Source: Prostheceraeus crozeri
Lineage: Eukaryota > Platyhelminthes > Polycladida > Euryleptidae
NCBI GenBank assembly: GCA_907163375.1
Contig: CAJQUW010000879.1
Span: 1 to 64,000, forward strand
Direction of reading: 5' to 3'
Length of the DNA: 64,000 nucleotides
Below are positions 8,087 to 45,029 of this stretch, piece after piece. The stretch's first letter is position 1. Every line of letters begins with the position of its first letter. The notes beneath the pieces are model-generated. The model was not told where the DNA came from. It did not search any database and saw nothing but the letters and a program-made list of their open reading frames with translations. The translations under genes and the position numbers were made by a program.

Positions 8087-8099
8087 GTTAGATTTATCG

Positions 8100-28339: not shown

Positions 28340-28983
28340 GTAATAATAATAATAAACGTTTACATTGGTGAATGGTAATCGATAGCTACAAGTGGCAGCA
28401 GTCATTGTAAAGGTAAATAAGTAAATAAAGTACATAATTTATCTTCTGTACAGAGAGTTAAATAGTGGTGTTGCTTTTAGAATAGAAGAGTCTCTACGCC
28501 CTGCTGTCCGTCTCGGCAATAAAAGAAATCGACCGATGTTGACTGAGTAGCCAACAAGTTGTGTAGCACATGATTCGAGTCCATCACCTTATTCAAAAGT
28601 TTTAAAGAGAGAGTTCTTCCTTCCTCAAGAAGTTCAAGGCATTGAGATTTGCAGTCTTTACCACATAAAATTCTATGAAACCTATTTTGAAGACGCTCCA
28701 TCCGCTAAACGTCTCTTATGCACATTCCAATCAAAAGAGGAGCGCAATACTCTATTATTGAGCGGACAAACGAATCATAAACAAGTTTCATATTCGTGAA
28801 GCTCAGAGACTCTCGAAGGATGCGAAGAACGTGCAATCGACGCGAAGAACTACGAATGACGTTATCGACATGTGATGACCAAGAAGCTCTTTGGTTGAAA
28901 GTCACACCTAGTATGGATAGAACTTCAACTTCAACAACATTTTCCAAAGAAACGTACGATCTGTTACTGCTCTTTGAAGTGAA
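28340..28983 (-). mobile_element. 3' part of the LINE interrupted by element B
   Basis: The minus strand encodes the C-terminal part of a LINE reverse transcriptase: LSILGVTFNQRASWSSHVD, LRILRESLSFTNMKLVYDSF, RSIIEYCAPL, then ERLQNRFHRILCG and a tail ending near 28450. The 3' end runs into an ATTATTATT microsatellite near 28350, typical of CR1/jockey-group LINEs. There is a frame change near 28703. The 5' half of the same LINE continues at 45024 on the other side of element B. Confidence 0.85.
28978..28983. repeat. Left target site duplication of element B
   Basis: AGTGAA here matches AGTGAT at 45024-45029 in five of six bases. Six base pairs is the duplication length known for Polintons. 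Both copies lie in the LINE coding sequence. Confidence 0.75.
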
Positions 28984-29543
28984 AGTAGTAACCCCGTGGC
29001 AAATTCAAGGCCAAAATGCGAAACGATGAGTCATCAGGCTGACGCACCCCCTCTGGAAGGAAGTCGCCAAGGATGTGCTGGGAGGAATGGGTCCGTGAGG
29101 AGGAGAGATGTTCATGAAACCGCCCCCCCCCCCAACGACTCAACTGGCCAAGTTGGTTCAAAAGACCAAAGTTGTTGAGAATCATGTGAAAGAGGCTTCT
29201 ATCAAGGTTTCAGGTTAAAATTCGCACAAAAAATTTTTTCGAAAATGTTTCACTACGGTGGTTGAAAATTTTTTTCAAGTCCAAATGTGAAATGTCGCTT
29301 TTTTAGCCAACTTTGACGATGAATAGCGGAGGATTGGAAGTGAATGAAGAGCTCGGGTTTCTTTTAGGGGCAAGACCGCGCTTTGTTCTCTAGGATCCAC
29401 TCTTTTCAGATGCGTGGCAGGCTCCGTTTCCAAATGAGAGCCTGTTAAAAATCGAGTTTTTGCGCATTTTCCAAGATTTTGGAACTTTTTGAAAAAACGA
29501 CTCAGTGTTTTAACTCGGCTTCTGGTCATCGTAGAGGGTCGAG
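28984..29543 (+). repeat. Left terminal inverted repeat of element B
   Basis: 560 bp, reverse-complementary to 44464-45023, including an 11-base C run. Comparing them by eye I find one difference (ACTCAG against ACCCAG). It contains a TGAGTCA site at 29027 and the subterminal CTGACGC motif about 55 bp from the end. The frames within it are incidental. Confidence 0.92.
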
Positions 29544-29681
29544 GGATGTCTTAAATGAAAGGGGAGAGCGAGAAAACGTGACACTCAAAATTTGGAGTCA
29601 ATCGGAGCACTAGAACCGGAGATAGACGGGTTTAAAGTTCTTGGATGATGGGTATTACGTCATCAGCTGATCGCCACAAAC

Positions 29682-29688
29682 TATATAA
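29682..29688 (+). promoter_or_regulatory. First TATA box of element B, with upstream CRE-like site
   Basis: TATATAA in ACTATATAAGCAAGG, preceded by TTACGTCA at about 29655. A GTAGGT donor follows near 29738, and the sequence there resembles the leader-intron donor of element A. It could start a long 5' leader for the zinc/coiled-coil gene, or a separate RNA. Confidence 0.5.
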
Positions 29689-30170
29689 GCAAGGAACCGA
29701 CAGAGACTTTTCATTTAGAGGAGAGCGATTGTCAAAGGTAGGTCGTCTCTCTGAGCTCCGATGATAGCTTCGGACATTCTAAATTCCGGGTTTCTGTAAG
29801 AAACTGACTTAGAAAATTTCATCGCTGAACTCAGCTAAGCCGTCAGACTTAGAGGTTCGCCAGGAGATGGCCTTCGTCTCCAGGCCATGAAAGACTCCGA
29901 AACTTTAAAGGCTTGTAACTTTGCTTCTACAAGTCCGTTTGACTTGATTCAAAAAAGGTTCGGTCGCTATTGACCTGCCCTAAGTGATAGACTCCTTATA
30001 AAATTTCATAAATAGTGCTAAAAAGTTGAAAAATTTAAATTCGCTATTTTTGTTGATTTTCTGGGGTTTTCAGACCTTCTGATTTCAATAAAGACCTTTA
30101 TAAAGTTGTCAGAGGCGAGCTTCGGCTCGAGACTTGTTTCCTGATGTAAATAACTCCACCGATTTTCATG

Positions 30171-30380
30171 TCAAAATCGGGGCCCGGATACAAACACAGT
30201 GACATGACGCACGCTCTGTCCGCTCGAGGTTGGATTTGTGGGTCGAGGTCTTGGAGTTGGGATAAGATCCCCTCTGAGAAATGCCTGTGACGGATTCATC
30301 AGCTTAACTTGTCTTTCCTCAAAGCGAAGTTGTCTTTGTGATAGTATTGGGCGACTATCGATTCTGTCTTTGTATAGCAT
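30171..30380 (-). CDS. Possible small gene, element B
   Basis: A 69-codon minus-strand frame starts MLYKDRIDSRPILSQRQL, with a Pro/Arg-rich tail (IPTPRPRPTNPTSSGQ). It has no recognisable domain, and no TATA box or 3' signal is obvious. It overlaps the region between the two plus-strand promoters, so chance is possible. Confidence 0.2.
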   Translation of the reverse strand: MLYKDRIDSRPILSQRQLRFEERQVKLMNPSQAFLRGDLIPTPRPRPTNPTSSGQSVRHVTVFVSGPRF

Positions 30381-30505
30381 GGGCCTTCACGACTGAAAGC
30401 CCAGTAACTGTCGATGTGTTAACCAAATTTGGTAAAAGCGTCGTTGTCAAGTCAAAAGCACGACTAAATTTAGAAAGACCAAGGCAAGGCTTTGTGTCGG
30501 GAGGG

Positions 30506-30512
30506 TATATAA
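30506..30512 (+). promoter_or_regulatory. TATA box of the element B zinc/coiled-coil gene
   Basis: TATATAA in GGGTATATAAGCC. A short leader exon would end at a GTAAGC donor near 30560. An intron then runs to the TTTTCAG acceptor at 30645, 7 bp before the ATG. Confidence 0.65.
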
Positions 30513-30652
30513 GCCACTGTTTCTCTCTAGGCTTCACTCCTGCTTCAAGTTGTAAGCTGTGACTTTAGATGAGATCCTGTAACGATCTCCTCTTATGAGC
30601 ACTAAAATGTGTCTCAATTTAACACATTATTTCTTCTCTTTTCAGTTTGAAA

Positions 30653-32053
30653 ATGACGAAGAAATGCAACAAAAAACTACAAATCTTTAAGTGCAGTTGT
30701 GGCATGCCCTTCCGCGATGACCGTTTCAGGCGCCACGTCTTGGCGAGAGTGACGAAGGGTGAGATGAAGCATGATGATGTGTTGATGGTGATATATTGCG
30801 CGTGGTGTGATGTTCGTTGTAGTGCGTATGATGTCGAGTTTGTAAAGGCTCATGCCAATTGTCCTCTGCGTGTGATTGGGAAGGAAATGATGAGTCAAGT
30901 GTTGAGTGGTGAGCGGGGGAGCGCATTTGTTCAAGGCAAACCAGTGCGTTCCCCAGTCGTGAATGTTGATTTGGATAAGGATGATGAAGTGGTGAGTAAA
31001 GTAAAGAGGAAGTTGATTGTCGAGAGTGATGATGAGGCTATGGAGAGCGTTGTAACGAAGAAGGGATGTGTTGAGAGGTTGAGTGATGATGATGAGCTTG
31101 AGCGAGCTGTCGGGTCGATTGAGCCACTGGCAGAGCCACTGGCCCAATCGTCGCCGAGAGATGAGCGTGTGATGCCTAATTGTGTTGTGAGAGTGAGTCA
31201 GTCGAGTGGGCCGAGTAAAGTGGTGTTGACGAAGAATGATGCGGTGGCGTATGGGAATGTGAGGAACGAGTGTGACAGGCAGGGAAAGTTGAATGCTGCA
31301 AAGTGTACGTTAAAAGAAGTGACTGTAGAAAGGGATCGTTTGAAGACAGAGTCGGAGGACTTTGCGAGTGTGAAGAGAGAGTTGTTTGAGGCGAGGCAGA
31401 AGTTGGTGAATGAGAGAAAGTTGAAGGAGACGCTTGAGTCGAAGTTGGAGAGTTGTGAGAAGTCGTTCCGTCGAGAGCGTGAGTTGAAGGAAGAGGCGAT
31501 GGAACGAGTGAGAGTGTTGGAGCGTCAGTTGAGTGTGCAGTCGGAAGTGTCGCCTGAAACGGTCACCGCCCTTCACATTCCTGTGGTGGGCTATGTCCCG
31601 GAGCGGCCATTAATTTATGGAGATGTGACTTCAGATACAACACAGGGATGTTTTAACTGCACGGATGTCCGATGTTATCACGTCAAAATACATCACAAGG
31701 AGGACATCCGTGTAGATTATAGAAAGCCGCACAAATTTCGTAAGTATTATGACTGGAACATAACATTGTACCATCTTTCTCATTCTTACTTCTTTCATTG
31801 CAGGCCAACTGAAAAAGTCATAAGCCCACCACATCCCACGTCCCGAGAACGACCCATGGGCTCTCTTAAGGGCCAACCTTTTAATGCAGCTAAAGCGGTC
31901 CCAAGCCCGCCACATATCTTTGGATATGGAATGCAGAGGGGAAGAAAAATGATGAATGGAATGAAATGGGAGGCGACCCTTGCACCACATGCAACACAAC
32001 AGACTTCTCTCTTCGCTAGTGAACAAGCTCTTGTCAGTGTCATCAGAAATTAA
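30653..32053 (+). CDS. Zinc/coiled-coil protein, element B
   Basis: The start ATG (MTKKCNKKLQIFKCSCGMPF) follows a splice acceptor by 7 bp. The N terminus has a Cys/His pattern (CSC, H, CAWC, H, C) like its element A homologue. The middle is a long charged coiled coil, and the C terminus opens LHIPV and has CFNC...RCYH. A 64-nt intron (31740-31803; GTAAGT donor, TTGCAG acceptor) sits where element A has its 61-nt 3' intron. Both the spliced and unspliced frames stay open to 32053. In element A the stop precedes this intron, so the B protein has probably run on into former 3' UTR, which includes the histone-like hairpin sequence at 31859. The function is unknown. Confidence 0.72.
   Translation: MTKKCNKKLQIFKCSCGMPFRDDRFRRHVLARVTKGEMKHDDVLMVIYCAWCDVRCSAYDVEFVKAHANCPLRVIGKEMMSQVLSGERGSAFVQGKPVRSPVVNVDLDKDDEVVSKVKRKLIVESDDEAMESVVTKKGCVERLSDDDELERAVGSIEPLAEPLAQSSPRDERVMPNCVVRVSQSSGPSKVVLTKNDAVAYGNVRNECDRQGKLNAAKCTLKEVTVERDRLKTESEDFASVKRELFEARQKLVNERKLKETLESKLESCEKSFRRERELKEEAMERVRVLERQLSVQSEVSPETVTALHIPVVGYVPERPLIYGDVTSDTTQGCFNCTDVRCYHVKIHHKEDIRVDYRKPHKFRKYYDWNITLYHLSHSYFFHCRPTEKVISPPHPTSRERPMGSLKGQPFNAAKAVPSPPHIFGYGMQRGRKMMNGMKWEATLAPHATQQTSLFASEQALVSVIRN
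31859..31874 (+). terminator. Histone-like hairpin in the element B zinc/coiled-coil gene
   Basis: GGCTCTCTTAAGGGCC followed by AACC, identical in its 16 nt to two element A copies and preceded by the same GAGAACGA-CCAT context. No CAAGA follows. It lies inside the run-on frame, which suggests loss of the original stop. Confidence 0.5.
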
Positions 32054-32298
32054 CATGTTGTACAAAGGCTTTACTGCAACGCAGGTTGATGTATAGTTAG
32101 AAAGTTTGATCATCGAAGGTTTATTCATAAGTCTAGTCAGAAAGTGTATCATGGCTTGCAAAAGCAAAGTGTAGTCAAATAATTTTACTGCGACGCACGC
32201 CTGGGAAAATAAAGTTTGATCATTGAAGTTTTATGACTGACTGAACTCACAGCAGCAGTAGAAAGTTTAGCACAACACAAGTGTCATGAAAAAATACT

Positions 32299-32750
32299 TT
32301 ATTTGGTCTTCGATTTAACATCATCGAAACCCACTTTACTAATAGCAATGACAATATGGTTTACTTTATTCAGAAGCAAATGATTGCCGTAACCATGAAA
32401 AATGTCCATCCGGGAAATAATCTTCCGCAGATGCCGTGTATAAAACTCAGAAGCATCAGTAACATATTCTTGTCCGTAGGAACGAAATTGAAAGTCAACA
32501 CTTTCCGCTTCTTCACCTTGTGGAAAATGAATGTAATTGACATTTGCAATTAAATGAGCCTTGATGAGACTGTCTTCGAAATAAGATATCAACTCCGTAA
32601 ATATTTCTCGTGTGTAGTCTAAACATGCTTCCAATCTGTCTCCTCCCTTTGAAACTCAAGGATGTAATCTTGTATTAAGCCTCCGAAGCTCTCTTGATGA
32701 CAACGAATCGTGCAATCATCATGTTTCAATGTATTGACTTCAGGTGCCAT
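32299..32750 (-). pseudogene. Family X copy 1 (one-base frameshift)
   Basis: The frame starts at the ATG 32748-32750 (MAPEVNTLKHDDCTIRC), reads through HQESFGGLIQDYILEF, then meets a TAG near 32625. The family similarity continues one base out of frame (from LEACLDYTREIF) to 32299. The three X copies share the pattern RxHxxSxxGxIxDYIxxF, a middle VxxxxxF, and FYxxHxxKI near the C terminus. An AATAAA follows the stop. The missing base could be a true mutation or a sequence error. No known domain is recognised. Confidence 0.6.
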
Positions 32751-32888
32751 GCTTGAGTCTATTGCTAAACATCATTTTGTCTAGGACGATTTCAATAACA
32801 CGTTTCAAATGTGCGTGTGCACATCGGGAACTCTAGCTCGTCTGTGATTGGACGAGAGGTCTGATCCATTCACTGCTTAGGAAAATCT

Positions 32889-32895
32889 TATAAAA
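32889..32895 (+). promoter_or_regulatory. TATA box of the element B PolB gene
   Basis: TATAAAA in CTTATAAAAGACAG. A leader exon would end at the AAG/GTGAGT donor (intron from 32938), and the next exon starts at 33331 after TCCTTTTCAG. Confidence 0.65.
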
Positions 32896-33378
32896 GACAG
32901 TGCATCAGCTCTGTTCTTCACATTAATCTTTCACAAGGTGAGTGTCGGTGAGCTCCTGCTATCAGGTTGTTTTCATGTAGTCTCTTGCTATCACATCTTG
33001 TGCTCATAAAAGATATCATCGTTGTGATATCTCCTTTGCTCGAGCGTTCCTTCGGGACGGCGGGTACTGCCGTAGAGGGATTGCGTTGCACGGGTTGTTC
33101 GTCGTTTGTTAGACCGAAACCTCTGAGCTGTTGCTCATGTTGGGCGTTCGACTTCATACTCAACGTGATGCTTTCTCTCACCAGGTCAGAGTACTTCAGC
33201 CATTCGACAAATGTTAGTCTTTATGATATGGAGTAGAGTGAAATGTAAATCATTAGATGTAACTTCAATGATTGTTCCCATGATAAACGTTGACTAGGCA
33301 AATGTAACGATTCTCATCTTTCCTTTTCAGTGATTGAAATCTGCGTTGACAAAGTCTAATTAAACCTTATCTACTAAA

Positions 33379-35040
33379 ATGGAGTTTACGAAAATCGAAG
33401 AGTATCGCGTCTGTGCTGAGAAGGAGAGGAAGACGATTAAGCAATGTAAGTTTTTTGTGCAATGGGGCAAGGATGAGGTGCAGGTTGTGCTAATAAAACT
33501 CTTTAACTAACACCATTAGGTTTGCATGTGTGCGTTGAACGTAAGAATTAATTTTCATAAACCTCTAAATAACATCAAGAGGGTAGGAATCATGTCCTTA
33601 TTAATTTTCAATGAAAATCAAGACCCCTAACCTCTCCCTACTCCATGATTTTCAAAACCGAAACTGACATTTCGAAAAATGCATTGTGATGTGTTTAGGT
33701 GAAATCTCTCACCACCCTCTTTTCTTCCGTTTCAGTGCAAGAACCGTTCGTCAATGGGGAGTCCGTCCCTGTAGAAGCAATCGGACAAGCCTACGAGCGA
33801 CTTGGAATGTGTAAGTATCTTGATGGATTACTGCTGTCATGTTTTAGCACTTCTGTATCCGTATAGCTCATTCTCTATCATTGTTGTCTCCGCAACCCCT
33901 AATCTCATCTCTTTTTCCTCTCTACAGATTTGGCAAGGCAGGAGAAGTGGGAGGAAGCCGCGAGGAATTTCCGGCCCTACCTTCCCACTCCACCACCACT
34001 GCCAACCAAACAACTCCCTACCATCCATCGACCTCGGCCATTGCCCCACCTCCACCGCCGCCAGCACCGGTACCTGCGCCAGTCCCTGCTCCTCGTCGCC
34101 ACATCCCTCCGACGACAAAGCCAAGGACCCTTCCGCCTTCGGTCCGTATCCCACTCCTGGCTCCTCCGCGTCCATCCTTGCTGCCGGAGTTACAGTCTTT
34201 AGATGGTAAGCAATCGTGATTGGGAAATAGGGGGATGGGGACTTCAAACTTGAAATGATGATCATGTTACTAATCTCTTTTCTCTTTTTCTCAACAGATT
34301 TGGCGGCCTACCTCCTGGACGGCGACGTTCCCTCCCGTCCCATCATCATCCCTGCATTACCACCGCCACCTGCAGCGGCTGACCTCCCTCTCCTCTCCGT
34401 CAAGTCGGTTGAGAGATTGTTGGAGCAGGAGGAGTTGGAGATAGTCGGAGAGGAGAGGGAGATTGAAGTCGAAGAGAAGGAGGACTTTCGATGCCAGTGG
34501 TGTGACAGGGTCTTCGCCTCAGCCTACAATGTGAGACGTCACACCGCTGGCCATGCCTGCAGGGGAAGAAAGCGCCGACCGATCCCTCAACGGCCCAAGT
34601 GTGAAGGTTGTGGACGCACGTTCTACAACAGCACCAACTTGCGAGTCCACATCGAAGGCGGTTCCTGTGGCAGTGTGAGGCAACCACCGACAACAACAGG
34701 TAGGAAGCATCCTTCATCGCACGTCGGCTTTTCCTGTTCTTCGTGTCAGAAGACCTTTCCTACAGAGTTTGTTCTTTCTTCGCACACACTCTGTCACACT
34801 CATCTCACTGAGCTTTACACTGACAACAACGTCACTCTAAGGCTGAGCAAGTTTTCCCGTGAGAGGCTCGTTCGCGATTATGAGTTAGAAAGCTCTGAAG
34901 CTGTGCAAGACATTCATCCTTTCTTGATGAATAATATAGGCTTAATTCATCAAATGTTGGCGAGTTTAGATAGATTTTTACTTAAGGGCATGTTCTATCT
35001 CACTGCTCGTTTCAATAAGGTAGACAGTAGCAGGGAGAAG
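33379..35040 (+). pseudogene. N-terminal zinc-finger exons of the element B PolB gene
   Basis: I infer coding exons at 33379-33445, 33736-33810, 33928-34205 and from 34298, each with GTAAG donors and CAG acceptors. Exon 3 encodes a Pro-rich segment, but the frame that agrees with exon 2 stops at 34202, while the frame that joins exon 4 begins elsewhere, so exon 3 seems to hold an indel. Exon 4 has three C2H2 fingers (CQWCDRVF, CEGCGRTF, CSSCQKTF) and the conserved LVRDYELESSE block. A frame change near 35038 breaks it from the PolB part. Compared with element A the N terminus is longer and Pro-rich. Confidence 0.65.
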
Positions 35041-38000
35041 TAGAGTCCACTGTGACCATTAGGATAGCCTCCTGTGCTGCTGATCTAATAGGTGATGTAA
35101 TCGAGTGGATAGAGAGACATGCGATCTATCTCGTCAGCAACTTAAATAAATTCAATGAAAGAAACAGCGGTCTGGTCTTTGATGGGATAGAGAAAGTAGA
35201 CATCAAAATAAATCTTTTAGAAAATTTACAAGGGAGTGGTTGTTTCACCCTCCCCAAAGCACCGGCTGACAAAAAGGCTGTCGTCAATGTAGAATGTCAG
35301 TCCCAGTGTTTCAAGTATGCCGTCCTCTCCATTCTTCACTATAATGATATAGGTTTGCATCGTCAAAGAGTCACCAAGTATTGTGAATGGGAGGATAAGC
35401 TTAAGTTTGACGGGTTAGATGTCAACACATTAGATTTCAAAGGCATCGCCCAATTTGAAAAACTCAACAATATTAAGATCGTCGTCCATCTCTGGGAAAA
35501 AGGTCTGAAGGGCGTTAGGTATAATAATAGCCAAAGTAACTTCGACCGGGTTGTCAATCTCCTCCTAGTCTATAGCGACAACCACCCAGAATGGCATTAT
35601 TGTGGCATTCCCAAAATTTCTAGATTGCATGTCCACCAACAAAGTTGTGATAACAAACATTATTACTGTGATCGCTGCAAACGGCGCTTTAGGTCAAAAC
35701 CATATTTTGAAGAGCATTACGAGTGGTGCTCTCGGGGTTAATTTCAAATGGAAGTCATGCCCAAAGATAAATTTTATAGGTATGAGGAAAACGGCAATGA
35801 GCTCAGTCCCATATGTATCATCTATGCGGACATTGAATGTTATATTGAACAAGAAGATCTAAGTCATGAGCCAGCAGCCATTGCCTGCTATGAAGTTTGG
35901 CATCCATATTATAGGAACCAAAATAAGATGCATGTGTGGCAAGGCGAGGAGTACGTTGAAAACTTCCTCAACTTTTTAGATAGGAAAGTCCATTTTCATC
36001 AACGCTATGAAACGGAGCTGACTAGGAAACTCATGTGCTTCACAGAAGCCGATAAAATCAAGTTTGATAGGACCACGGAATGTCCCCGCTGCTGTTCATC
36101 CTTTGATGATCAGCAACATAAGAAAGTGAGGGACCATTGCCGTCTCAGTGGCAAATTTAGGTCTGCCTTATGCAGTAAATGCAATATGAAACTTAGGCTC
36201 AAAAGGCGAACGCTCCCCGTCATCTTCCATAACTTTAAATGTTATGATGCTCACATCATCATTCGCCATGGATTCGGTAAAATGAAATCCTGGTCATCCA
36301 AAGTGATTGCACAAAGTAAGGAAAAATTTATGTGCATCACTGCTAAAGTCCAAGTAGATAAGACGAAGGAGGGGAAGCCTGTCTTCTACGACATAAAGTT
36401 TCTAAACAGTTTTCAATTTATGTCTTCTTCCTTAGCCGCGTTGACTAATAATTTAGAAACACTTCCCCTCACTCAAGATTTAAATAAAGACTATCCCAAC
36501 ATAAGTGACAGTCTGATACGACGGAAAGGGGTGTTTCCATATAGTTATTTAGTTCAATTGATACATTGAAAGAAACATCCCTTCCATCCATCGATAAATT
36601 TAAAAGTGATTTGACGGGTGAGGACTGTTCGCTGGATGATTATAGGCATGCAGAGCCAACATAGTCAGAATTTAGGTGTCGCACGTTTGATGACTACATG
36701 CTTGCCTACCTAAAATTAGACGTCTATCTGTTGGCTGACGTGTTTGAGACTTTTAGGAAAGTCACATTAGAACAGGACGCCTTAGACCCCGTCCATTTGT
36801 CCTATCAGTCAGCCTTCAAGATGACGAAAGAGAGCATTCATTTACTGCAAGATGCAGAAATGTACACGTTATTTGAACGTGGTATTAGGGGTGGCTTAAC
36901 ATTTGTCAACAAACATGTTGTCAACAGCACCCAAGACATAGGACCGACCACGCATTTAATGTACATTGACCAAAATAATTTGTATGGGAGCGCACTCTCC
37001 AAGCCTTTGCCACAGTCTGAATTCCAATGGGTAGAGCCCCATGACATTGAGCACTTCTCCAATCCAGCACACATCATGGCACGGGGAGATGAGGCCGACA
37101 TAGGTTATTTACTTGAAGTCGACCTCATCTATCCAGACTGTATTAAGAATAGAACCGTTGATTTTCCTCTCGCACCCGAATCTGGCATAGTCAGTCCAGA
37201 TATGTTCTCTTCCTTTATGGAAGTACACAATAAGAAATATGAGGCAGAAAATGACTTAAATCATAAACCCACTAGGAAGTTGTTGCTCACCCAATTGAGC
37301 AAGCAGCATTACATCGTGCACTATTCCATCCTCAAATTCTATCTAGGTATGGGGATGCAACTTGACAAAGTCCATCGCGCTATCCAGCTTAGGCAGAAGC
37401 CCTTTCTAAAACCGTATATAGAATTTAATAGCAAGAAACGGGCTGAATCCAAGAATCCTTTCGAAAAGGACTTCTTTAAATTTAAGAATAATGCCCTCTT
37501 TTGTAAAACCATGGAGGATGCAAGAAAGCGCATGGACTATCGCATCGTGACTGATCCGGAAACGAGTATCAAGTTATGTCGCTCGCCGTTGTTTTGCTAC
37601 CATGATGTCATTTCCGAAGACATCACTGGTTTTAAGATGTTAAAATCTGAAGTAGAACTTTGCAAGCCCATTTATGTCGGTCAAGCTGTCTTGGATCACT
37701 CCAAGTTAGAAATGTAAAAGTTATTTTACCACACTTTTAAAACGTGTCCATTGATCCAACATGTGGAATTAGTAGGAGGCGATACAGACAGCTTCTACCT
37801 AGCTTGACAACAACGAGCCAAGTCAAGCAGGAAGATATTTTAAAATATTTAGCATCCAAGTTTGATAGTTCCAACTATCCCACTGACCATCCGCTTTACT
37901 CTACCTCAAATAAAGCGAAGCTTGGCTGCTTCGAGGATGAGTGTGCCGGCAAACAGATAGAGGAGATGATCTTGCTTCGTCCCAAGATGTACTCCATGAA

Positions 38001-38310
38001 GCTAAAATCCTCAGAGCTTTCTATAAAACGGGCGAAAGGCATCTCGAAGTCAATCGTTAGAAAAATGACACATAGGGACTATCAAGATGCCTTAGATTCT
38101 CTTAAAATTAAAAAAGTAGAAATGACCATTTTAAAATCACAGTCACATCACGTCAGAACAACGACGTTTAGGAAACAAGGTCTCTCAGCTTGGGAAGACA
38201 AGCGATGCTGGATGAGTCCTAACCACTCATTACCATACGGCCATCCAGACACTCATCTACCTCAACCCAAGAGACAGAAACTTTCTCCTCCTCCGTCCGG
38301 CGATGTCTGA
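35041..38310 (+). pseudogene. Family B DNA polymerase, element B, broken
   Basis: Similarity to the element A polymerase is continuous to the shared SGDV C terminus, but the frame is broken at about 35038 (shift), 35740 (TAA), 36548 (shift), 36660 (TAG), 37715 (TAA) and 37803 (shift). ExoI YADIECYI, ExoII FHNFKCYD, ExoIII YLKLD, motif A DQNNLYG and motif C DTDS are still readable. The HNH-like insertion has lost its DHDH (now DHCR), and motif B has Cys for Gly (ALFCKT). These changes at conserved positions suggest real decay and not only sequencing error. The copy cannot make a working polymerase. Confidence 0.88.
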
Positions 38311-39324
38311 TGATGAATGCTTCCTCTCTGTTGTGGTTGATGTTTTGCTTTTTCGCTCCATGGCGTTTTCTATGGGGGTGTTGTGAGTGAGTGCCTTGTA
38401 ATATGCGTCCAACTCCTGATCACTTCATATCATGACTTACATATCAACTGGTTTTTCCTGACTTTATTTTCTCCCTGCACATGAGTGACTTTGTTTTCTC
38501 CGGTGATGTGAGATTTAAAATTTTGTTTTCTGCTACCATCAGTATTAACTGCATGTGGCTGTGATGAAAATCGGTTGTGTTGATGAATAACATATCATGT
38601 ATATACTGTGTTGTTTCCTTTTGACATAAAGATGGGATTCTCACTCATTAGACAGAAGTAAAAGATTTAATCATTTTGTAAGATAGGTAGGGTTAGAAAT
38701 AAAGTTGTTCATTGTAAGTTAGAATTAAAGTTATTACCATGCCGCTGTTTGTAAGATAGGTGAAATATAAATGAAGTCAGAATCACTTCACTGCTTGTGA
38801 AGTTAGAAATAAAGTTGACATTTGTAAAGTTAGAAATAAAGTTATCAGCATGTCGCTGTTTGTAAGATAGGTGAAATGTAAATGAAGTCATAAGTATTTC
38901 ACTGTTTGCAAGATAGGTAAAGTATTAAATAAAGTCAAAAACATGTTAGAGTTTGTAAGTTGACATTCTCATCAACGAATGTAACATCATGACAATTTCT
39001 TCGGCTTAGGAAACATCAACCACTTTGCTGACTCATGTCTATAAATAGCTCTGACTCATGAGGTGGTAAGGCGACAGTCATACGAATCCAATCAGTCTTG
39101 TTCAACCTTTTTACCGACACGTGTGTGGGTGCGTCATTCAACATCGATGGCGCCTCACGTCAGACAGCGTGACCTTTTCACCAACAAGTGTGTGTGGGCA
39201 TCATTTCATGTCTATAAATAGCGCTGACTCATCATAAAGTGATGAACCTTGTTGATGACCTTTTCACCGACACGTGTGTGGGTGATAGTTCATTGCGATG
39301 ACTCATTCAAAACGCATCATGTGA
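38311..39324. repeat. Intergenic repeats with poly(A) signals, TATA boxes and AP-1 sites
   Basis: After the PolB end, 38660-38960 holds repeated GAAATAAAGTT and GTAAGATAGGT units with several AATAAA signals. From 39020 to 39300, units with CACGTGTGTGGGTG-type sequence occur three times. There are two TATAAATAG boxes (39041, 39214) and TGACTCA sites at 39029, 39052, 39225 and 39299. No gene is seen. The block looks like a tail-to-tail 3' end region plus an enhancer-like repeat. Confidence 0.55.
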
Positions 39325-39864
39325 TTAACACGACTCTATTAACTGTGACTCATACAGATAACGCATTAGAGATTTAACAATGTCAGCTACTTTACTGATA
39401 TCACGTAAACCAGTCATGATACAATGTCCGTTGTGAAACACTGCAATATGTACGGGATGCCACTTCCGAATCAAAGCAGCAGGAAAGAGTTCAGTTTCAT
39501 AAAATATACAATGATTACTGGTTTTAATGTTGGCTAGATTCACTAACATCTTCAATTGAACAGATACTACTATATTCTTCAATGTCAGGGGACTGAGGCG
39601 TAGATGAGGCATGAGTGTTCGCATTTTCTTGACGACGTCGTAACACATGGACTGCATCACGAAATGAGAAAGGTTTCCTAGGACTTGGATTTTGCCACAG
39701 CGAAAGATTTGAAGATTTCGACAGTTGCTCATGCGAATGACCAACATTTGCGGACGACCGCGATGATAGACTGAATCGGGAAGATGGGTATGCAACTGTT
39801 CTAAATCGATGTCTCTTCCGAGATTCATTTCGCGCATGGCGTTGATGATGCGGATGGGGAGCAT
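39325..39864 (-). CDS. TATA-binding-protein homologue (TBP-like)
   Basis: An intact 179-residue frame covers the whole two-repeat TBP core. Repeat 1 (about 5-90) has MNLGRDIDLEQL, then VYHRGRPQMLVIRM and IFRCGKIQVLG, matching the TBP pattern NLGxxLDL...xRFAAVIMRI...IFxSGKxVxTG. Repeat 2 (about 92-172) has LKNIVVSV, YETELFPAALIR and VFHNGHCIMTG, matching IQNxV..., YEPELFPGLIYR and IFxSGKxVLTG. The ELFP motif that places the DNA-intercalating Phe is kept. There is no N-terminal extension. A TATAAAA box lies 37 bp upstream. TBPs bend TATA DNA and seed transcription complexes; here a role on the element's own TATA promoters is inferred. Confidence 0.88.
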   Translation of the reverse strand: MLPIRIINAMREMNLGRDIDLEQLHTHLPDSVYHRGRPQMLVIRMSNCRNLQIFRCGKIQVLGNLSHFVMQSMCYDVVKKMRTLMPHLRLSPLTLKNIVVSVQLKMLVNLANIKTSNHCIFYETELFPAALIRKWHPVHIAVFHNGHCIMTGLRDISKVADIVKSLMRYLYESQLIESC

Positions 39865-39900
39865 GACTCACAAATGACATGAGGGTTGAGTGAACTTCCC

Positions 39901-39907
39901 TTTTATA
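39901..39907 (-). promoter_or_regulatory. TATA box of the TBP-like gene
   Basis: TATAAAA in AGTATAAAAGGG on the minus strand, 37 bp upstream of the ATG at 39864. A TGACTCA overlaps the start codon (39864-39870). Confidence 0.7.
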
Positions 39908-39913
39908 CTTTTC

Positions 39914-40153
39914 TCATGAGGGTTTTGGAATCACGATGTAGCAGTGATCATTATGTAGAATCATCTCTTGAATGCGAATAAATACAATGCCGTCTCCTAC
40001 GTTAATGACACGGCAAGAGTGGGATAGGATAGCGCGATGTAACCTTCGTAGATGAAAGCGTTCTAGAGTTATCTGAAGTTGACGCTTCGTATCATGAAAT
40101 GTAACATACTGATTTTTCCATGATACATGGAGCCATGCTGATGATTTCCACAT
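39914..40153 (-). CDS. Small unknown protein, element B
   Basis: A 79-codon frame starts MWKSSAWLHVSWKN, with a basic middle (FHLRRLHRAILSHSCRV) and a hydrophobic C terminus. A TTCTTCACTCAG acceptor lies 9 bp before the ATG, so it may be the last exon of a spliced gene. It lies between the TBP-like gene and family Y copy 1. No family is recognised. Confidence 0.4.
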   Translation of the reverse strand: MWKSSAWLHVSWKNQYVTFHDTKRQLQITLERFHLRRLHRAILSHSCRVINVGDGIVFIRIQEMILHNDHCYIVIPKPS

Positions 40154-40224
40154 GATTAAAACCTGAGTGAAGAAGGGTATGCCTAAGAAAGAAGGAGAGA
40201 GTCATGTTCATGTGTGGCATGGTG

Positions 40225-40285
40225 AGTGTACATTTTCTTTCTTGATACGGTGGCCGTTAGGCCGTGGTCTCATAAAGACCGATGG
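40225..40285 (-). terminator. Histone-like 3' end of family Y copy 1, with exact CAAGAAAGA
   Basis: On the minus strand, about 30 nt after the Y1 stop, comes the same GAGAACGCACCATCGG lead-in as in element A. Next are a GGTCTTTATGAGACC hairpin, a shorter GGCC-TAAC-GGCC hairpin with ACC, then CAAGAAAGA. Hairpin plus ACC plus CAAGAAAGA is the classic sea-urchin histone mRNA 3' arrangement (established knowledge). Two hairpins in a row is unusual. Confidence 0.65.
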
Positions 40286-40312
40286 TGCGTTCTCAGTGTG
40301 TGGAGAGTGTTA

Positions 40313-40862
40313 CTATAGTTGATCATCATCAACATGGACATCATTTTTAAAGGTTATGGAGACAAGATAGGGATTCAACGTAAACAACCTTCCGTCCCTG
40401 CGCGGACCCTTTCCCAAAATGGGGAGTGGTTTGCAATTGAGTAAGTCGAATTCGCTGCCCTCCTTTTCATGGATGATGAGACAGTGTTTATCCATATGCA
40501 CATACATGTATCGTCTTTCCATGATGGGAACTTGTAGCCGCTTCACATTGTGTCGAACAATTTCTTTGGGAATGGTGAGATTTGCTTTCAGGAATGTTTC
40601 AAGAGTATTGAATTGTAACCGTGTCCAATAGTCTAACGGCACACACACACGGCCAGTCCATACTTTGTTAACATAACCTTTAGATAATCTATCCGATGAC
40701 TTTTTTTATGGTCACGGCTTCTCCATGATGAGTTGTCTTTTGATTGAAAGCATTTTTACCCGATGCTAAAGTAAGGGAGTTCAGTGTACCTAGTGCGAGA
40801 GCAGAGGAGTTGATGGCTTCGAGCAACTGCATGGTTAGCGCAAGGACGGAAATGATTGCCAT
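40313..40862 (-). pseudogene. Family Y copy 1, frame broken at a run of seven A
   Basis: Two minus-strand frames form one gene. The first starts MAIISVLALTMQLLEA (ATG at 40862) and stops at 40689. The second, one base out of frame, continues from an AAAAAAA run near 40707 and ends at 40313 (VCVPLDYWTRLQFNTLETFL ... GPRRDGRLFTLNPYLVSI). It aligns with family Y copy 2 (IPIDNWLRQQLDILEDF ... GPHQSDGNLISLNLRI). TATAAAA at 40878-40884 is only 16 bp before the first ATG, so translation may start at the next Met. The A7 run suggests either a slippage error or programmed frameshifting. Confidence 0.6.
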
Positions 40863-40877
40863 GAGCTCAGTCGTCCG

Positions 40878-40884
40878 TTTTATA
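40878..40884 (-). promoter_or_regulatory. TATA box of family Y copy 1
   Basis: TATAAAA in GCTTATAAAACGG on the minus strand. Confidence 0.6.
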
Positions 40885-41149
40885 AGCAGGCCTAGCTCCA
40901 ATCACATGCGTTTCCCTTTTCTCGTTTTCCCTGTCTTTGTTATGTGACAAAGAGTTATCGGACGTGAACTTTTGACTGCATGGGTAGAAACCTTCCCTCT
41001 TACAAAGTCGTTCTAGTCCTCACAAAGACTTGAGTGACACGCCCCTTTTCTCAAACAAAGACGCATTCATTTATTTAACAAAGCGTAATGACTCATGTTG
41101 CTCTATACACCATTACAAAATACACAGTGAAAAGAAATTTTTATTGCAT

Positions 41150-41596
41150 CTACACAATGTGTCGAGCATCAAACAAAGTCGTGGATGTAAACACACTCAG
41201 TTGAATCATGATATGTTTAACAACGTATGCATTTCCTTCCACCGTCTCTACTATTCTCTCCATAATTTTCTCCATATGACGACCATAAAATTGATCACTA
41301 AGAGTAATCCATTCTGTGCAATAAGATCCAAAACGAAGTGGTTTTTGCAAACCTTTCAACTCTACATAAGCAACGAGTCAACCCTTTACATCTTGAGGTT
41401 GTAAACTCTCCATCAATCTTTTGAAGAGAGGAAGGCTTTCAATGAGCACTACTTTCATATCATTCATCTTCATTTTAAATGTAAGTTTCCAATCTTGTAA
41501 AAATCCATCGAATCCTTGTTGATTAAGTGTCAAATGACACATGTGGTTACTTAAGGTACGATGCGCCATCATAAACGTTGTAACTATAGATTTCAC
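41150..41596 (-). pseudogene. Family X copy 2 (in-frame TGA)
   Basis: The frame from 41596 (AHRTLSNHMCHLTLNQQGF, FDGFLQDWKLTFK) runs to a TGA at about 41378, then stays in frame and matches family X to 41150 (LRFGSYCTEWITLSDQFYGR, HMEKIMERI). The stop replaces an Arg of copy 3 (DVKGRLVAE), consistent with CGA to TGA. An AATAAA follows downstream. The copy is disabled unless the stop is read through. Confidence 0.6.
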
Positions 41597-41742
41597 ATTG
41601 CTTCAATGACTTCCACGATGAATAAAACAGAAATAACAATCATGTTCCACTGTAAATGTATTCAATACGATACAAAATTTACAAGTACAGAATGCACTTC
41701 ATGAAATGATCATCATTCATTCACAAGGAGTAAAAACATGTT

Positions 41743-42306
41743 TCACATAGACCCATGCTGTTGACAATAATATAGATACAGTTCATAAACGTCATAGAGA
41801 CTACAATGCCAGCGTGAAGAGAGTTTTGCAATGTAGGTAGCTTTATTTCTAGTATTACAATGGGATGGTGGTCTGTACAGGTGATGCCTCTCACCGAAAC
41901 ATACAGCCATATCAAAAATCATTTCATCTCTGAACTTCTTTTGATCACAATGCATATGATAGTCTTGTCTTACACGATCTACCCAACATGGTAAATATAA
42001 ATTATCAATGTGCAACTGAAGTGTTGTTGCTTCTCGTTCAGAATCATTTCCTAATATTTTAACAATATGAAAACCTGACAGCCACCGTTTGAAATCACTT
42101 ATCAAATACGTTTCATTTACAAATCCAATATGAATCAAAATAGAAGGATCAAGTCCATGCACATGACGTCGTGACCATTCGTCTTTGTGTGGAGGACAGT
42201 AGGCAAATCTATGATATACACTAACAACAGTTTGATCACTTTCTCTCATTGCAATAGCACTCAATTCCTGCATGGGTGTTCCCTCACTGTCTATGAAGAT
42301 GACAAC
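41743..42306 (-). CDS. DEDDh-type exonuclease-like protein, element B
   Basis: An exon starts at 42306 after a GATATTGTAG acceptor and encodes VVIFIDSEGTPMQELSAIAM, about 187 residues in all. The motifs fit a DEDDh 3'-5' exonuclease: DSE (ExoI), HVHGLDPSIL and DFKRWL, then GND (ExoII region), and HCSLYD (the H-x4-D of ExoIII) near the C terminus. Conserved Cys/His residues between them (YHMHCDQKK, HHLYRPPSHC) resemble the zinc-bearing exonuclease-like fold of Maelstrom proteins. The upstream Cys/His segment (42329-42478) may be its first exon. It could act in replication or RNA/DNA processing. The assignment rests on motifs only. Confidence 0.5.
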   Translation of the reverse strand, partial: VVIFIDSEGTPMQELSAIAMRESDQTVVSVYHRFAYCPPHKDEWSRRHVHGLDPSILIHIGFVNETYLISDFKRWLSGFHIVKILGNDSEREATTLQLHIDNLYLPCWVDRVRQDYHMHCDQKKFRDEMIFDMAVCFGERHHLYRPPSHCNTRNKATYIAKLSSRWHCSLYDVYELYLYYCQQHGSM

Positions 42307-42328
42307 CTACAATATCAAAAAGACTTCA

Positions 42329-42478
42329 TTACAAAATAATACATTGAGCAGGAACTTTACAAGGATTTCTGTCCTTTACATAACAAAAGATACATACAAC
42401 ATGATTACAATGTTTTATTTGAACATAACGCGCAAGGCCGCGTTTTCCACATTCACTACATACTAACTGATTACAATA
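42329..42478 (-). CDS. RING-like Cys/His segment, probable exon
   Basis: The frame reads CNQLVCSECGKRG, then HCNHVVCIFC and NPCKVPAQC, a C-x2-C...H-x2-H-x2-C-x2-C type zinc site. It begins where family Y copy 2 ends in another frame, after a possible TAATCAG acceptor, and lies just upstream of the exonuclease exon. It may be an upstream exon of that gene or a frameshifted tail of Y copy 2. Its own start is not clear. Confidence 0.4.
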   Translation of the reverse strand, partial: YCNQLVCSECGKRGLARYVQIKHCNHVVCIFCYVKDRNPCKVPAQCIIL

Positions 42479-42479
42479 C

Positions 42480-43163
42480 TTAAGATTTCTCTTTGGTGGT
42501 AGCACAATCTTTCTTTGATGCGCGACGACGTTTAGGTTTGGTGACAGGTTCTTGACACTCTTTGACACAAGAATCAATGACTTTCTCAATGTGATCAAGT
42601 CCTGTTAACTCAGGATGATGATGAATTTGAGTAATGCGCAAATTGAGAGAAATCAAATTACCATCAGATTGATGAGGTCCCACATAAACAGCAGGCACCT
42701 CAATATGAAGGGAATAAAAGCTTGCACCTAGCGATGACAATTCTGTTTCAACTGACTGTTCAACTGTCACTCCTGAAGTGACTTTACAATACTTGCTTTG
42801 CAAAATATACCAGCGACTGCCGCGATACAATGGTTTATAATAAGAAGTTTTCTTTTCTGGCCACAACTGTAATAGTTCAGTAGGAATAAGAGCCTTTTGC
42901 CTCACAAAGTCTTCTAAAATGTCAAGCTGCTGACGCAACCAATTATCAATAGGGATACTCAGGTTTTGACCGCAACGATTTACTTGCGTATCCACTTTTG
43001 GTAAGTATATCGCCGGCGTTTGAAGATAGAGTCGAACACCGTTGTAGCGCAATTGCTGTTTGTAGGTGGGATAGCCGTGAATTACCTTTTCAATTTTCGG
43101 ATTCCACAGCTCGAGATGTTGAGGATTCAGTGATGCAGCAGTTGGAGTAGGATTCATGGCCAT
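42480..43163 (-). CDS. Family Y copy 2, intact
   Basis: The likely start is the ATG at 43163 (MAMNPTPTAASLNPQ), because a CTTTCGTTACAG acceptor lies 6 bp before it. The protein has about 227 residues. Its core has beta-strand-like segments (RLYLQTPAIYLPKVD, FYSLHIEVPAVYVGP, NLISLNLRITQIHHH) and a Lys/Arg-rich tail (KPKRRRASKKD). Family Y copy 1 is a divergent paralogue. The basic tail and beta-rich core would suit a small virion or DNA-binding protein, but this is a guess and no family is recognised. Confidence 0.6.
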   Translation of the reverse strand: MAMNPTPTAASLNPQHLELWNPKIEKVIHGYPTYKQQLRYNGVRLYLQTPAIYLPKVDTQVNRCGQNLSIPIDNWLRQQLDILEDFVRQKALIPTELLQLWPEKKTSYYKPLYRGSRWYILQSKYCKVTSGVTVEQSVETELSSLGASFYSLHIEVPAVYVGPHQSDGNLISLNLRITQIHHHPELTGLDHIEKVIDSCVKECQEPVTKPKRRRASKKDCATTKEKS

Positions 43164-43239
43164 CGCAGTCTGTAACGAAAGAATACCACTAAGTACATTC
43201 ATGATCATCAGAGAAAAGAAAATTGTTAGCTTAGCAGTG

Positions 43240-43262
43240 ACATATGAGGTGGCCCTTAAGAG
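43240..43262 (-). terminator. Degenerate histone-like 3' motif
   Basis: CTCTTAAGGGCCACC on the minus strand, about 30 nt after the stop at 43287, matches the 3' half of the element A hairpin and its ACC tail. The 5' stem half has decayed (GTTCCT), and no CAAGA follows. Confidence 0.4.
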
Positions 43263-43286
43263 GAACTTTTGGAGCGTTCACAGGAT

Positions 43287-43598
43287 TTAAAGCTTATCAC
43301 CAAAGTCTAAGTCTTCGTCATCGTCCAGTAAATTAAATGTCTTGGGCTTAGGACCCGAATTGAGTTTCAATTCTCTAAAAGACTTAAAGGTAAAGCGTCT
43401 AGGTGGTGGAGGTGGCAGTGGTGGTGATGGTTCAACAAAATAAGCTTGTACAATCATCGGCCACACACTCTCCTGCGTCTCTCTTCCAAAATGCTGGTAG
43501 GGTTTAGGCCACACCGTCATGACACTCACTTGTAAATTTGCAAACAGGATTGAATCAGACAAAGTTGAGACGGAGAATGGCTTCGGAAAGTCACACAC
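43287..43598 (-). CDS. Proline-rich acidic-tailed small protein, element B
   Basis: About 103 codons, with a polyproline run (PSPPLPPPPPRRF), a basic middle and a very acidic C terminus (LLDDDEDLDFGDKL). There is no good in-frame ATG at its start; the frame opens near a GTG, so an upstream exon or a damaged start is likely. The 3' end has the degenerate hairpin motif. Unknown function. Confidence 0.45.
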   Translation of the reverse strand: MCDFPKPFSVSTLSDSILFANLQVSVMTVWPKPYQHFGRETQESVWPMIVQAYFVEPSPPLPPPPPRRFTFKSFRELKLNSGPKPKTFNLLDDDEDLDFGDKL

Positions 43599-43864
43599 GC
43601 TTTCCAGGTCAAGAGAATGAAATGATTAGAAAATGGGGAGACGTCTGCTTTCATAGTCTCCTGCGAATCCACATTTGACACTATGTGAGCCAATCAGAGA
43701 CCTCCGTTTCTCCCCTGACTTCGTTGCGGCGGGGAAAAGGAGACGCGCAGACGTCTGACTCATGAATGCTTTTCCCAAATCTAGTTTAGCAGATTGAGTT
43801 GAATATGAGTGTGTTTTATGCGACATGAGAGCAAGTTGGATCCATGCTCATGAAATGAATCTAG

Positions 43865-44272
43865 TCAAGATGCAATTTTCGCCATGTGTCCCTGATAGAA
43901 ATCTTTGGGATCATGTATCGTCTGTGCAGAATAGGATGCAAAATGAAACACTACATGTTCACCTGCATGTTCATCAGTCACTTTCTTAAATTCAATCTCT
44001 GCAACTAATCGTCCTTTCACATCTTTATTTATCAAACTGTCCATGAGCTCTTGGAAAACGAAGTAGCCTTCAACGATAGCAAATTCTAAGTCTGCCTTTT
44101 CATGATGAAAGGAGATGATGTAGTCCCTAATCACACCACGAAGACTTTGTCGATGAAAACGTAGTGAACAAAATTTATTCGTAAACTCTACTTCTTCTGT
44201 CATCTTTCTTCCCTTCACTTTGAAGACATAGCATGAATGACATTCAGGTGCAACATGACACGCTGATGCCAA
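43865..44272 (-). CDS. Family X copy 3, open through its whole length
   Basis: About 135 codons. It carries the family pattern RFHRQSLRGVIRDYIISF, DVKGRLVAEIEF, VVFHFASYS and FYQGHMAKI. Its N terminus has an added Cys/His-rich segment (CHVAPECHSCYVF). The first residues lack an ATG; a GGCATCAG acceptor-like site precedes ATGTTGCACC, so it may be spliced. It is the outermost gene, about 190 bp inside the right TIR. The three copies suggest repeated duplication within the element. No known domain. Confidence 0.5.
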   Translation of the reverse strand: MASACHVAPECHSCYVFKVKGRKMTEEVEFTNKFCSLRFHRQSLRGVIRDYIISFHHEKADLEFAIVEGYFVFQELMDSLINKDVKGRLVAEIEFKKVTDEHAGEHVVFHFASYSAQTIHDPKDFYQGHMAKIAS

Positions 44273-44463
44273 ATCTGGTCTCTGTTTTCCCGTCCGAGGC
44301 TTGTTTCACCCGCTAGAGCGATTTTCATAAAAATTCTAACTCTGTCGTTTTTTCGTCAATGTCGAAAATGTCAATAACGTCTCACTTCTAAACGAAGGCA
44401 GAGTGGAACAAGCCATGTTTTCCACTGAATTTGTCTCATTCTTAGCTTTCAAACGAGCTATTG

Positions 44464-45023
44464 CTCGACCCTCTACGATGACCAGAAGCCGAGTTAAAAC
44501 ACTGGGTCGTTTTTTCAAAAAGTTCCAAAATCTTGGAAAATGCGCAAAAACTCGATTTTTAACAGGCTCTCATTTGGAAACGGAGCCTGCCACGCATCTG
44601 AAAAGAGTGGATCCTAGAGAACAAAGCGCGGTCTTGCCCCTAAAAGAAACCCGAGCTCTTCATTCACTTCCAATCCTCCGCTATTCATCGTCAAAGTTGG
44701 CTAAAAAAGCGACATTTCACATTTGGACTTGAAAAAAATTTTCAACCACCGTAGTGAAACATTTTCGAAAAAATTTTTTGTGCGAATTTTAACCTGAAAC
44801 CTTGATAGAAGCCTCTTTCACATGATTCTCAACAACTTTGGTCTTTTGAACCAACTTGGCCAGTTGAGTCGTTGGGGGGGGGGGCGGTTTCATGAACATC
44901 TCTCCTCCTCACGGACCCATTCCTCCCAGCACATCCTTGGCGACTTCCTTCCAGAGGGGGTGCGTCAGCCTGATGACTCATCGTTTCGCATTTTGGCCTT
45001 GAATTTGCCACGGGGTTACTACT
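44464..45023 (-). repeat. Right terminal inverted repeat of element B
   Basis: 560 bp, mirror of 28984-29543. It contains TGACTCA at 44974 and the CCAGAGGGGGTGCGTCAG subterminal motif at about 44952. The block just inside it (44325-44463) matches terminal sequence of element A. Confidence 0.92.
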
Positions 45024-45029
45024 AGTGAT
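45024..45029. repeat. Right target site duplication of element B
   Basis: AGTGAT, five of six bases as at 28978-28983. Confidence 0.75.

Follow-up and report, generated by a model that had tools for sequence, protein, structure and literature searches.

We analysed a stretch of 64,000 nucleotides (hereafter the window), which carries at 28984-45023 an element bounded by 560-bp inverted repeats that are 99.8% identical and gapless. Between these repeats lies an intact gene for a homologue of the TATA-binding protein (TBP), and a second, truncated element occupies the start of the contig. The features are as follows, with those of the truncated element last.

28978..28983, no strand: left target-site duplication (TSD) AGTGAA, 5 of 6 bases as in the right copy
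28984..29543, plus: left terminal inverted repeat (TIR), 560 bp, beginning AGTAGTAACC
30623..32053, plus: 476-aa open frame (stop to stop), with a Cys-rich N-terminus and a coiled coil by eye
34231..38310, plus: PolB with N-terminal C2H2 fingers and an endonuclease-VII domain, broken into several frames
39325..39864, minus: TBP gene, 179 aa, intact and intronless
39524..40152, minus: second conserved frame, overlapping TBP residues 1-112 (the 5' two-thirds), interrupted in the window
39872..39877, minus: initiator-like TCATTT, starting 30 nt past the TATA box's initial T, with 7 nt between it and the TBP ATG
39901..39907, minus: TATA box TATAAAA, its first base 43 nt before the TBP ATG
40313..44305, minus: small-gene cluster upstream of TBP, also in siblings L111, L112, L114, L115 and L117-L119
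40316-40705, 42483-43277, 43290-43625 and 43868-44305, minus: small genes in the cluster
41153-41602, minus: small gene in two pieces
41746-42306, minus: DEDDh exonuclease-like 187-aa frame (by eye)
42332-42604, minus: RING-like gene (by eye)
44464..45023, minus: right TIR, ending in GGTTACTACT on the plus strand
45024..45029, no strand: right TSD AGTGAT, one base different from the left AGTGAA
235..8140, minus: second, truncated element, with an intact 968-aa PolB at 235-3141
3306-4052, minus: zinc-finger frame of the truncated element
6908-8140, minus: coiled-coil gene of the truncated element

The window element ends in AGTAGT//ACTACT and thus combines the TIRs, the end motif and the 6-bp TSD of a Maverick. 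Its boundaries place the TBP gene between the TIRs and outside the flanking DNA, as an earlier note on this DNA had proposed. The same note described TBP as intact while PolB of the same element is broken, and PolB is indeed in pieces across several frames. By Pfam these pieces matched zf-C2H2 (1.8e-11), Endonuclease_7 (7.8e-4) and DNA_pol_B_2 (6.6e-4), the latter two under their cut-offs. They are 60-66% identical to the intact PolB at 235-3141, and a sibling (L117) has a 1183-aa open PolB; the enzyme of this family (family A, below) appears to be of the protein-primed type. PolB scans of IMG/VR returned no relative. The 476-aa frame has a homologue in the left element at 6908-8140, and TATATAAG lies at 30506.

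To survey the remaining genes, 87 frames were scanned with Pfam: 77 of the 86 element frames of at least 55 aa and 10 frames from the left element; of the remaining element frames, three PolB frames were scanned separately and six TIR-end frames were left out. Among those 87, only TBP scored below 1e-5. No integrase (rve), protease, capsid or ATPase gene was found in the window element by the Pfam scan (77 of 86 frames) or by tblastn, and the whole element gave no tblastn match at 0.01 with 11 proteins of families B and C (below), the ATPase query being the C-terminal part; strongly diverged versions of capsid, protease or ATPase could escape those searches. By gene content, the window element is therefore a reduced Maverick. 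The TIRs, ends and PolB agree with the previous assignment to a Polinton-type element; the integrase, protease, capsid and ATPase genes of such an element were not detected in the window. In addition, no RNA polymerase gene was seen in the 16-kb window element, no TFIIB-like gene was recognised in it, and an Rfam search returned nothing. The 176-aa ATG frame of the DEDDh-like gene had no Pfam match above cut-off. Two IMG/VR 'relatives' of the 242-aa gene (L001, L002) match over 24 and 31 residues and were taken as chance.

The TBP frame is real and, as claimed before, has 179 residues; it lies on the minus strand. The motif blocks NLGRDIDL, IFRCGKIQVLG, YETELFPAALIR and NGHCIMTG are all four present in the order first described. 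Both TBP repeats, likewise claimed, were recovered: PF00352 matches the frame in two stretches (E=3.4e-22; 78.5 bits against a curated cut-off of 22.9), which gives the two tandem repeats that form a TBP saddle. The same profile also exceeds its cut-off in one copy from each family (A, L117; B, L125; C, L129). A phmmer search of the PDB with the frame returned 35 distinct sequences, nearly all TBP or TBP fusions (best 2.3e-10). These profile and PDB matches are far beyond chance and rule out a chance frame. A TBP saddle had been expected, and a predicted model and structural matches to TBPs were obtained: a BFVD search gave 45 entries at E<=0.001 (best 4.4e-10), and the structural matches are far better to cellular TBPs than to herpesvirus mimics; a single-sequence AlphaFold prediction (pLDDT 38) was uninformative. 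With the window TBP as query (P0001), tblastn against phage records gave no match. Nine YETELFPA pattern matches (L094-L102) were discarded, as P0001 aligns to them over 10 residues only. The overall reading of the earlier note, a mobile element with its own TBP homologue, is supported.

The assembly containing the window comprises 2.05 Gb in 14,165 contigs. A search with P0001, in which the best 150 of 11,375 candidates were scored, found at least 150 TBP copies, the window's included, with 96% identity or more across residues 1-179 or 2-179; 147 of these best-scoring 150 are stop-free, and the copy counts are lower bounds. A genome search with PF00352 scored the best 150 of 10,982 first-look candidates; all 150 were over the cut-off, nine with a stop, and four rows were not from elements, namely two host TBP exons (contig C9306) and two of a TLF-like gene (C3829). 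From the PF00352 table we took 20 stretches of 9.9 kb, plus eight search loci. Family A accounts for 10 of the 20 stretches plus L108 and L110, with TBPs 91-97% identical to the window's. Family B (8 of 20) has TBPs 41-44% identical to the window's, and family C (2 of 20 plus search loci, making three places) has TBPs 54-56% identical to it. In the selection and promoter counts below, family C is represented by five rows from its three places (L107 is L129 and L109 is L130).

PolB, whole or in pieces, was recognisable in 19 of the 20 stretches of families A, B and C, the exception being L126. The left-element PolB aligns with 7 of the 8 family B stretches at 87-97% identity, with one 82% piece in L127. 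In family A the PolB and TBP genes converge, and in families B and C they share a strand; TBP persists despite this change of orientation. A further family A copy (C11032) has 16,666 bp between its ends, which are the same as the window's, and a perfect TSD, AAAGAC; the two family A copies measured are 16.0 and 16.7 kb long. With the 11 family B/C proteins, tblastn matched all 10 family B and C stretches, each with integrase, major capsid protein (MCP)-like and protease matches, and none of the 10 family A stretches at 1e-5 (9.9 of ~16 kb covered in each). By Pfam, both families have an integrase with rve and chromo domains (L125, 1.9e-10; L129, 1.5e-13) and an adenain-type cysteine protease: Peptidase_C48 scores 7.7e-5 in L129, above cut-off, and 0.0013 in L125, below cut-off, alongside Peptidase_C5 at 0.044. 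The MCP-like frames of 425/426 aa and the C-terminal ATPase frames of families B and C were recognised by eye only, and had no Pfam or PDB match. Since TBP lies among integrase, protease and capsid-like genes in all 10 of their stretches, families B and C are Polintons; family A, to which the window element belongs, is a reduced relative of these TBP-bearing Polintons and has many copies. We are in very little doubt that the 179-residue frame is a genuine TBP resident in the Polinton/Maverick lineage.

To examine selection on this gene we used pairwise dN/dS (Nei-Gojobori). Within families the values are 0.37 (A, 78 pairs), 0.38 (B, 28 pairs) and 0.48 (C, 10 pairs, which include duplicate places), although the copies were drawn from the best-scoring 150, so that their intactness and these within-family ratios are biased in favour of selection. 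Between families A and B, and A and C, dN/dS is 0.36 each (dS above 1), values that are less exposed to the best-score sampling. Counted against the majority codon, family A has 42 synonymous and 72 nonsynonymous changes and two stops, a synonymous excess with p=0.011; family B has 18, 24 and 0 (p=0.021). In family C (7, 12 and 0) the excess is not significant (p=0.19). These results show that the element TBP is under purifying selection.

We also compared key residues across 24 places (13 in family A, eight in B and three in C). Human F197, F214, F288 and F305 (339-aa numbering) are presumably the four intercalating Phe. The last three correspond to F54, F127 and F143 of the element TBP, and Pro38 replaces the first in all 24 places, so that three of the four are kept. 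This weakens a claim of normal TATA specificity, not membership of the TBP family. Human N167 and N257 correspond to N8 and N97. Human E284, E286 and L287, which we take to be the TFIIB-contact residues of the C-terminal stirrup, correspond to E123, E125 and L126, so that these contact residues are retained. The residues N8, P38, F54, N97, E123, F127 and F143 are constant in all 24 places, and E125 and L126 are each present in 23. At A184, N189, E191 and R205, which we assume to be the TFIIA-contact positions of human TBP, the element protein has H25, D30, V32 and S46; the human letter is found at none of the four in families A and C and at one in B (N189 as N). Given the lost anchor Phe and the changed TFIIA positions, the element TBP may bind a different site or no TATA. 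The same changes suggest an altered DNA preference and freedom from host regulators.

Most copies of all three families have a TATA box ahead of TBP. TATAAA is found upstream of TBP in 10 of 13 family A sequences (absent from three), in all eight of family B and in all five family C rows (three places). In copies of all three families TATAAAAGG lies ~40 nt before the TBP ATG, and families B and C, too, have TCATT ~30 nt beyond the initial T of the box; the window's TCATTT (39872..39877) is initiator-like by comparison with the initiator consensus. The overlapping frame reads through the TATA box as Tyr-Lys-Arg, so that constraint on that protein could account in part for the conservation of the box. 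Most other element genes in the loci examined are without a TATA box near their starts: within 150 nt upstream, TATAWA was found for TBP only among the nine genes of L125 (family B), for TBP and two of eight other genes in L129, and for TBP and one of five other genes in the window. GCAAA is found within 80 nt upstream of 8 of the 16 non-TBP genes of L125 and L129, against 1.5 expected; the enrichment has p=3.9e-5 before correction for ~1000 five-mers and is borderline after it. GCAAA is thus a possible shared promoter motif of the non-TBP genes.

As to what the protein does, we lean, by a modest degree, towards a role in bringing host TFIIB and Pol II to the promoters of the element. No RNA polymerase gene was seen in the window element, which would therefore have to use host Pol II. 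In brief, the TBP gene would be expressed first, by the host machinery, from its host-type TATA and initiator promoter. Its product would take up the saddle fold and bind element promoter DNA. Judging from the fold and the conserved stirrup (E123, E125, L126), it could then bring in host TFIIB and RNA polymerase II. The replication and morphogenesis genes of the element would be expressed in this way without competition for host TFIID; the promoter targets and the timing of TBP action are those we infer. A more tentative extension, which we consider possible but rather doubtful, is that family A is a satellite of the TBP-bearing Polintons: without integrase and capsid but with a PolB and TBP of its own, it would depend on family B and C proteins for packaging and integration, and would have spread to at least 150 copies. 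In this extension, TBP and its serine-rich overlap partner would form an ancient two-component switch for TATA-less, GCAAA-marked promoters. If true, a small transposon would possess its own initiation system for host Pol II.

The same residues could also serve host interference, in which the element TBP competes for TFIIB or TATA boxes and so damps host or antiviral transcription. A protein with its TFIIB contacts kept and its TFIIA contacts mostly changed could be a sequestering or dominant-negative form. We nevertheless regard this as unlikely, as both repeats and three of the four Phe are conserved in 24 of 24 places, which is beyond the needs of pure TFIIB sequestration. Less probable still, at roughly the level of an outside chance, is a role in replication or packaging, the saddle bending DNA at the terminal repeats or at an origin for protein-primed replication. 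TBP does accompany PolB in all three families, including family A, where no capsid gene was found, but the TFIIB stirrup has been kept (E123 in 24 of 24 places, E125 and L126 in 23), and a protein that only bends DNA would not need it. Recruitment of the host polymerase remains our preferred reading.

Elements do acquire host genes, and we therefore considered whether the frame is a recently captured copy of host TBP or TLF/TRF2, carried as a passenger without a role in the element. In BLAST comparisons the window TBP is 23% identical to human TBP over 150 aa and 29% identical to the best-scoring archaeal TBP (L056), while the host TBP exons match human TBP at 86% and 91% identity. The host TLF/TRF2-like gene (L104, C3829) is 43% identical to human TBP over 115 aa and is distinct from the element TBPs. 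For phylogeny, 36 of 91 fetched TBP loci were retained after an 82% redundancy filter (set A4), with L012, which has a stop, omitted. In the first trees, one of them built without L006, L011 and TBPL1, the window row sits on an end branch of 10 and groups with three eukaryotic TBPs at 91/100, a grouping that is not starred; a topology with those three grouped without the window row was not rejected (p 0.534). A tree with host TBP and TLF and viral TBPs, as the earlier note had proposed, was then built with four element rows and 19 of the 36 A4 loci. The four form one 100/100 clade, whose branch measures 5.6 changes per site or more; together with eukaryotic TBP and TLF they make up a 10-row set (support 97/93). 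AU tests rejected grouping neither with TLF (p 0.092) nor with eukaryotic TBP (p 0.131). Archaeal and IMG/VR viral TBPs were rejected as close relatives; none of the five viral loci in the tree (of 11 fetched) is near the element clade.

The eukaryote-side placement, with both groupings allowed by the AU tests, is what a captured host gene would give. However, the 23% identity to human TBP against the 86% and 91% of the host exons, together with the separate clade, led us to reject a recent host retrocopy. The TBPs of families B and C, moreover, have diverged far from the window's while under purifying selection. The divergence, clade and selection together mean that a capture, if eukaryotic, is old and that the gene has been retained. 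Recent capture of a passenger is therefore largely refuted, and we give it very little weight; an ancient capture is compatible with a resident TBP, and the tree suggests that the gene was probably acquired long ago from the eukaryote side.

The second frame that overlaps TBP is conserved in its own right. In the window it consists of a 78-aa piece ending at 39914 and a 129-aa stop-to-stop piece at 39524-39913. In siblings it encodes 199-231 aa (L117, 4212-4907, 231 aa; L125, 4478-5128; L129, 4306-4905). Identity to the L117 product is 30% for L125 and 36% for L129, and YKR, FSF and SIE occur in all three products alike. When TBP codons were reshuffled synonymously in one copy per family, the observed open overlap was reached in a fraction of only 0.0003 (A), 0.0004 (B) and 0.0016 (C) of 20,000 trials. 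The second frame has at least 200 aa, stop to stop, in 9 of 13 family A sequences, 7 of 8 family B sequences and 1 of 3 family C places; TBP is stop-free in 22 of 24 places, the stops being in L108 and L110. TBP is thus the better preserved of the two overlapping frames.

Within the overlap dN/dS of TBP is 0.43 (A) and 0.55 (B); outside it, the values are 0.28 within A, 0.22 within B, 0.45 within C, 0.51 between A and B, and 0.22 between A and C. The synonymous excess was found outside the overlap in A and B (p 0.012 and 0.023; C, 0.24), and was not significant in the overlap part alone (p 0.14, 0.22 and 0.41 for A, B and C). A reading in which the second frame is the true gene and TBP a remnant kept open by it is accordingly most improbable: the second frame is open, with motifs common to the families, but TBP matches an ancient fold, its residues 113-179 lie outside the overlap and have the lower dN/dS in A and B, and it is open where the second frame is short or broken (window, L118, L120, L128, L106 and L109/L130). 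A dual-coded TBP is unusual in itself.

The elements can be compared with several known systems. In vertebrate Mavericks, (AGT)2//(ACT)2 is described as the commonest end motif, with 6-bp TSDs (PMC8097293), as at the window element's ends. A PolB with an endonuclease-VII domain, as in the window, is reported for Spodoptera Mavericks (PMC5803895). Families B and C share with Polintons/Mavericks the rve and chromo integrase and the C48/C5-type protease. Unlike them, the elements here carry TBP, in an overlapping gene, and family A has PolB and TBP with integrase and capsid genes not detected. The terms TATA and TBP had no match in the Maverick/Polinton papers checked for both, and among the matches listed from the open-access literature no excerpt told of a TBP-bearing Polinton or Maverick.

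Transcription initiation in archaea and eukaryotes centres on TBP (PMC7221094), and the TBPs of eukaryotic viruses in the literature consulted are those of large DNA viruses. TBP is reported for 59% of the genomes of mirusviruses (PMC10132985), and RNA polymerase subunits are described as well, both for mirusviruses and for a megavirus. Giant viruses and mirusviruses thus resemble the elements in having a viral TBP, with BFVD structural matches to the element TBP, and differ in their large genomes and RNA polymerase subunits against a 16-kb window element. The nimaviruses (WSSV-like) of crustaceans likewise represent an animal DNA virus with a TBP gene, also as endogenous copies; that TBP is reported to branch near NCLDV with weak support, and it has 818-891 aa against the element's 179 aa (PMC4506587). 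Beta- and gamma-herpesviruses have TBP mimics (BcRF1, U58, ORF24) which are reported to direct host Pol II to viral late promoters as part of a six-member complex. A TBP fold that steers host Pol II is our working analogy, with weak structural matches to U58 (9.1e-5) and BcRF1 (1.8e-4); the mimics are long proteins (577 and 1005 aa), unlike the bare TBP core of the element. Finally, heliorhodopsin-containing mobile elements of Cymbomonas have sporadic TBP genes and are also integrated, but are described as mirusvirus-like and not as Polintons (PMC10675990).

A conserved and selected TBP in Polintons indicates that a Pol II initiation factor can be encoded even by the small DNA elements that integrate into animal genomes. 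It suggests that such elements run their own transcription switch and are not wholly reliant on the host. The finding is relevant to the question of a virus-like early/late programme in Polintons, which one small protein and a defined promoter make testable. As a deep, fast-evolving TBP branch, with an anchor Phe replaced and most TFIIA contacts changed, the element clade can also help to show which TBP surfaces are dispensable.

Several further observations were made on the sequence around these genes. The DEDDh-like 187-aa frame is 96-99% identical in the seven sibling stretches where it was found. The small genes include two paralogous families on the minus strand, one at 40316-40705 and 42483-43277 and the other at 43868-44305, 41153-41602 and 32302-32655. 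By eye, the frames that flank the window element on both sides resemble one reverse transcriptase, and a frame at 21325-21762 (minus strand) resembles the GIY-YIG endonuclease domain of retroelements. At L132 (C2114:54000-56500), part of one family A TIR is present as ~10 tandem copies, ~260 bp apart. A 401-bp inverted repeat at 54557-54957/55206-55606, 99% complementary with a 248-bp loop, is probably another small inverted-repeat element.
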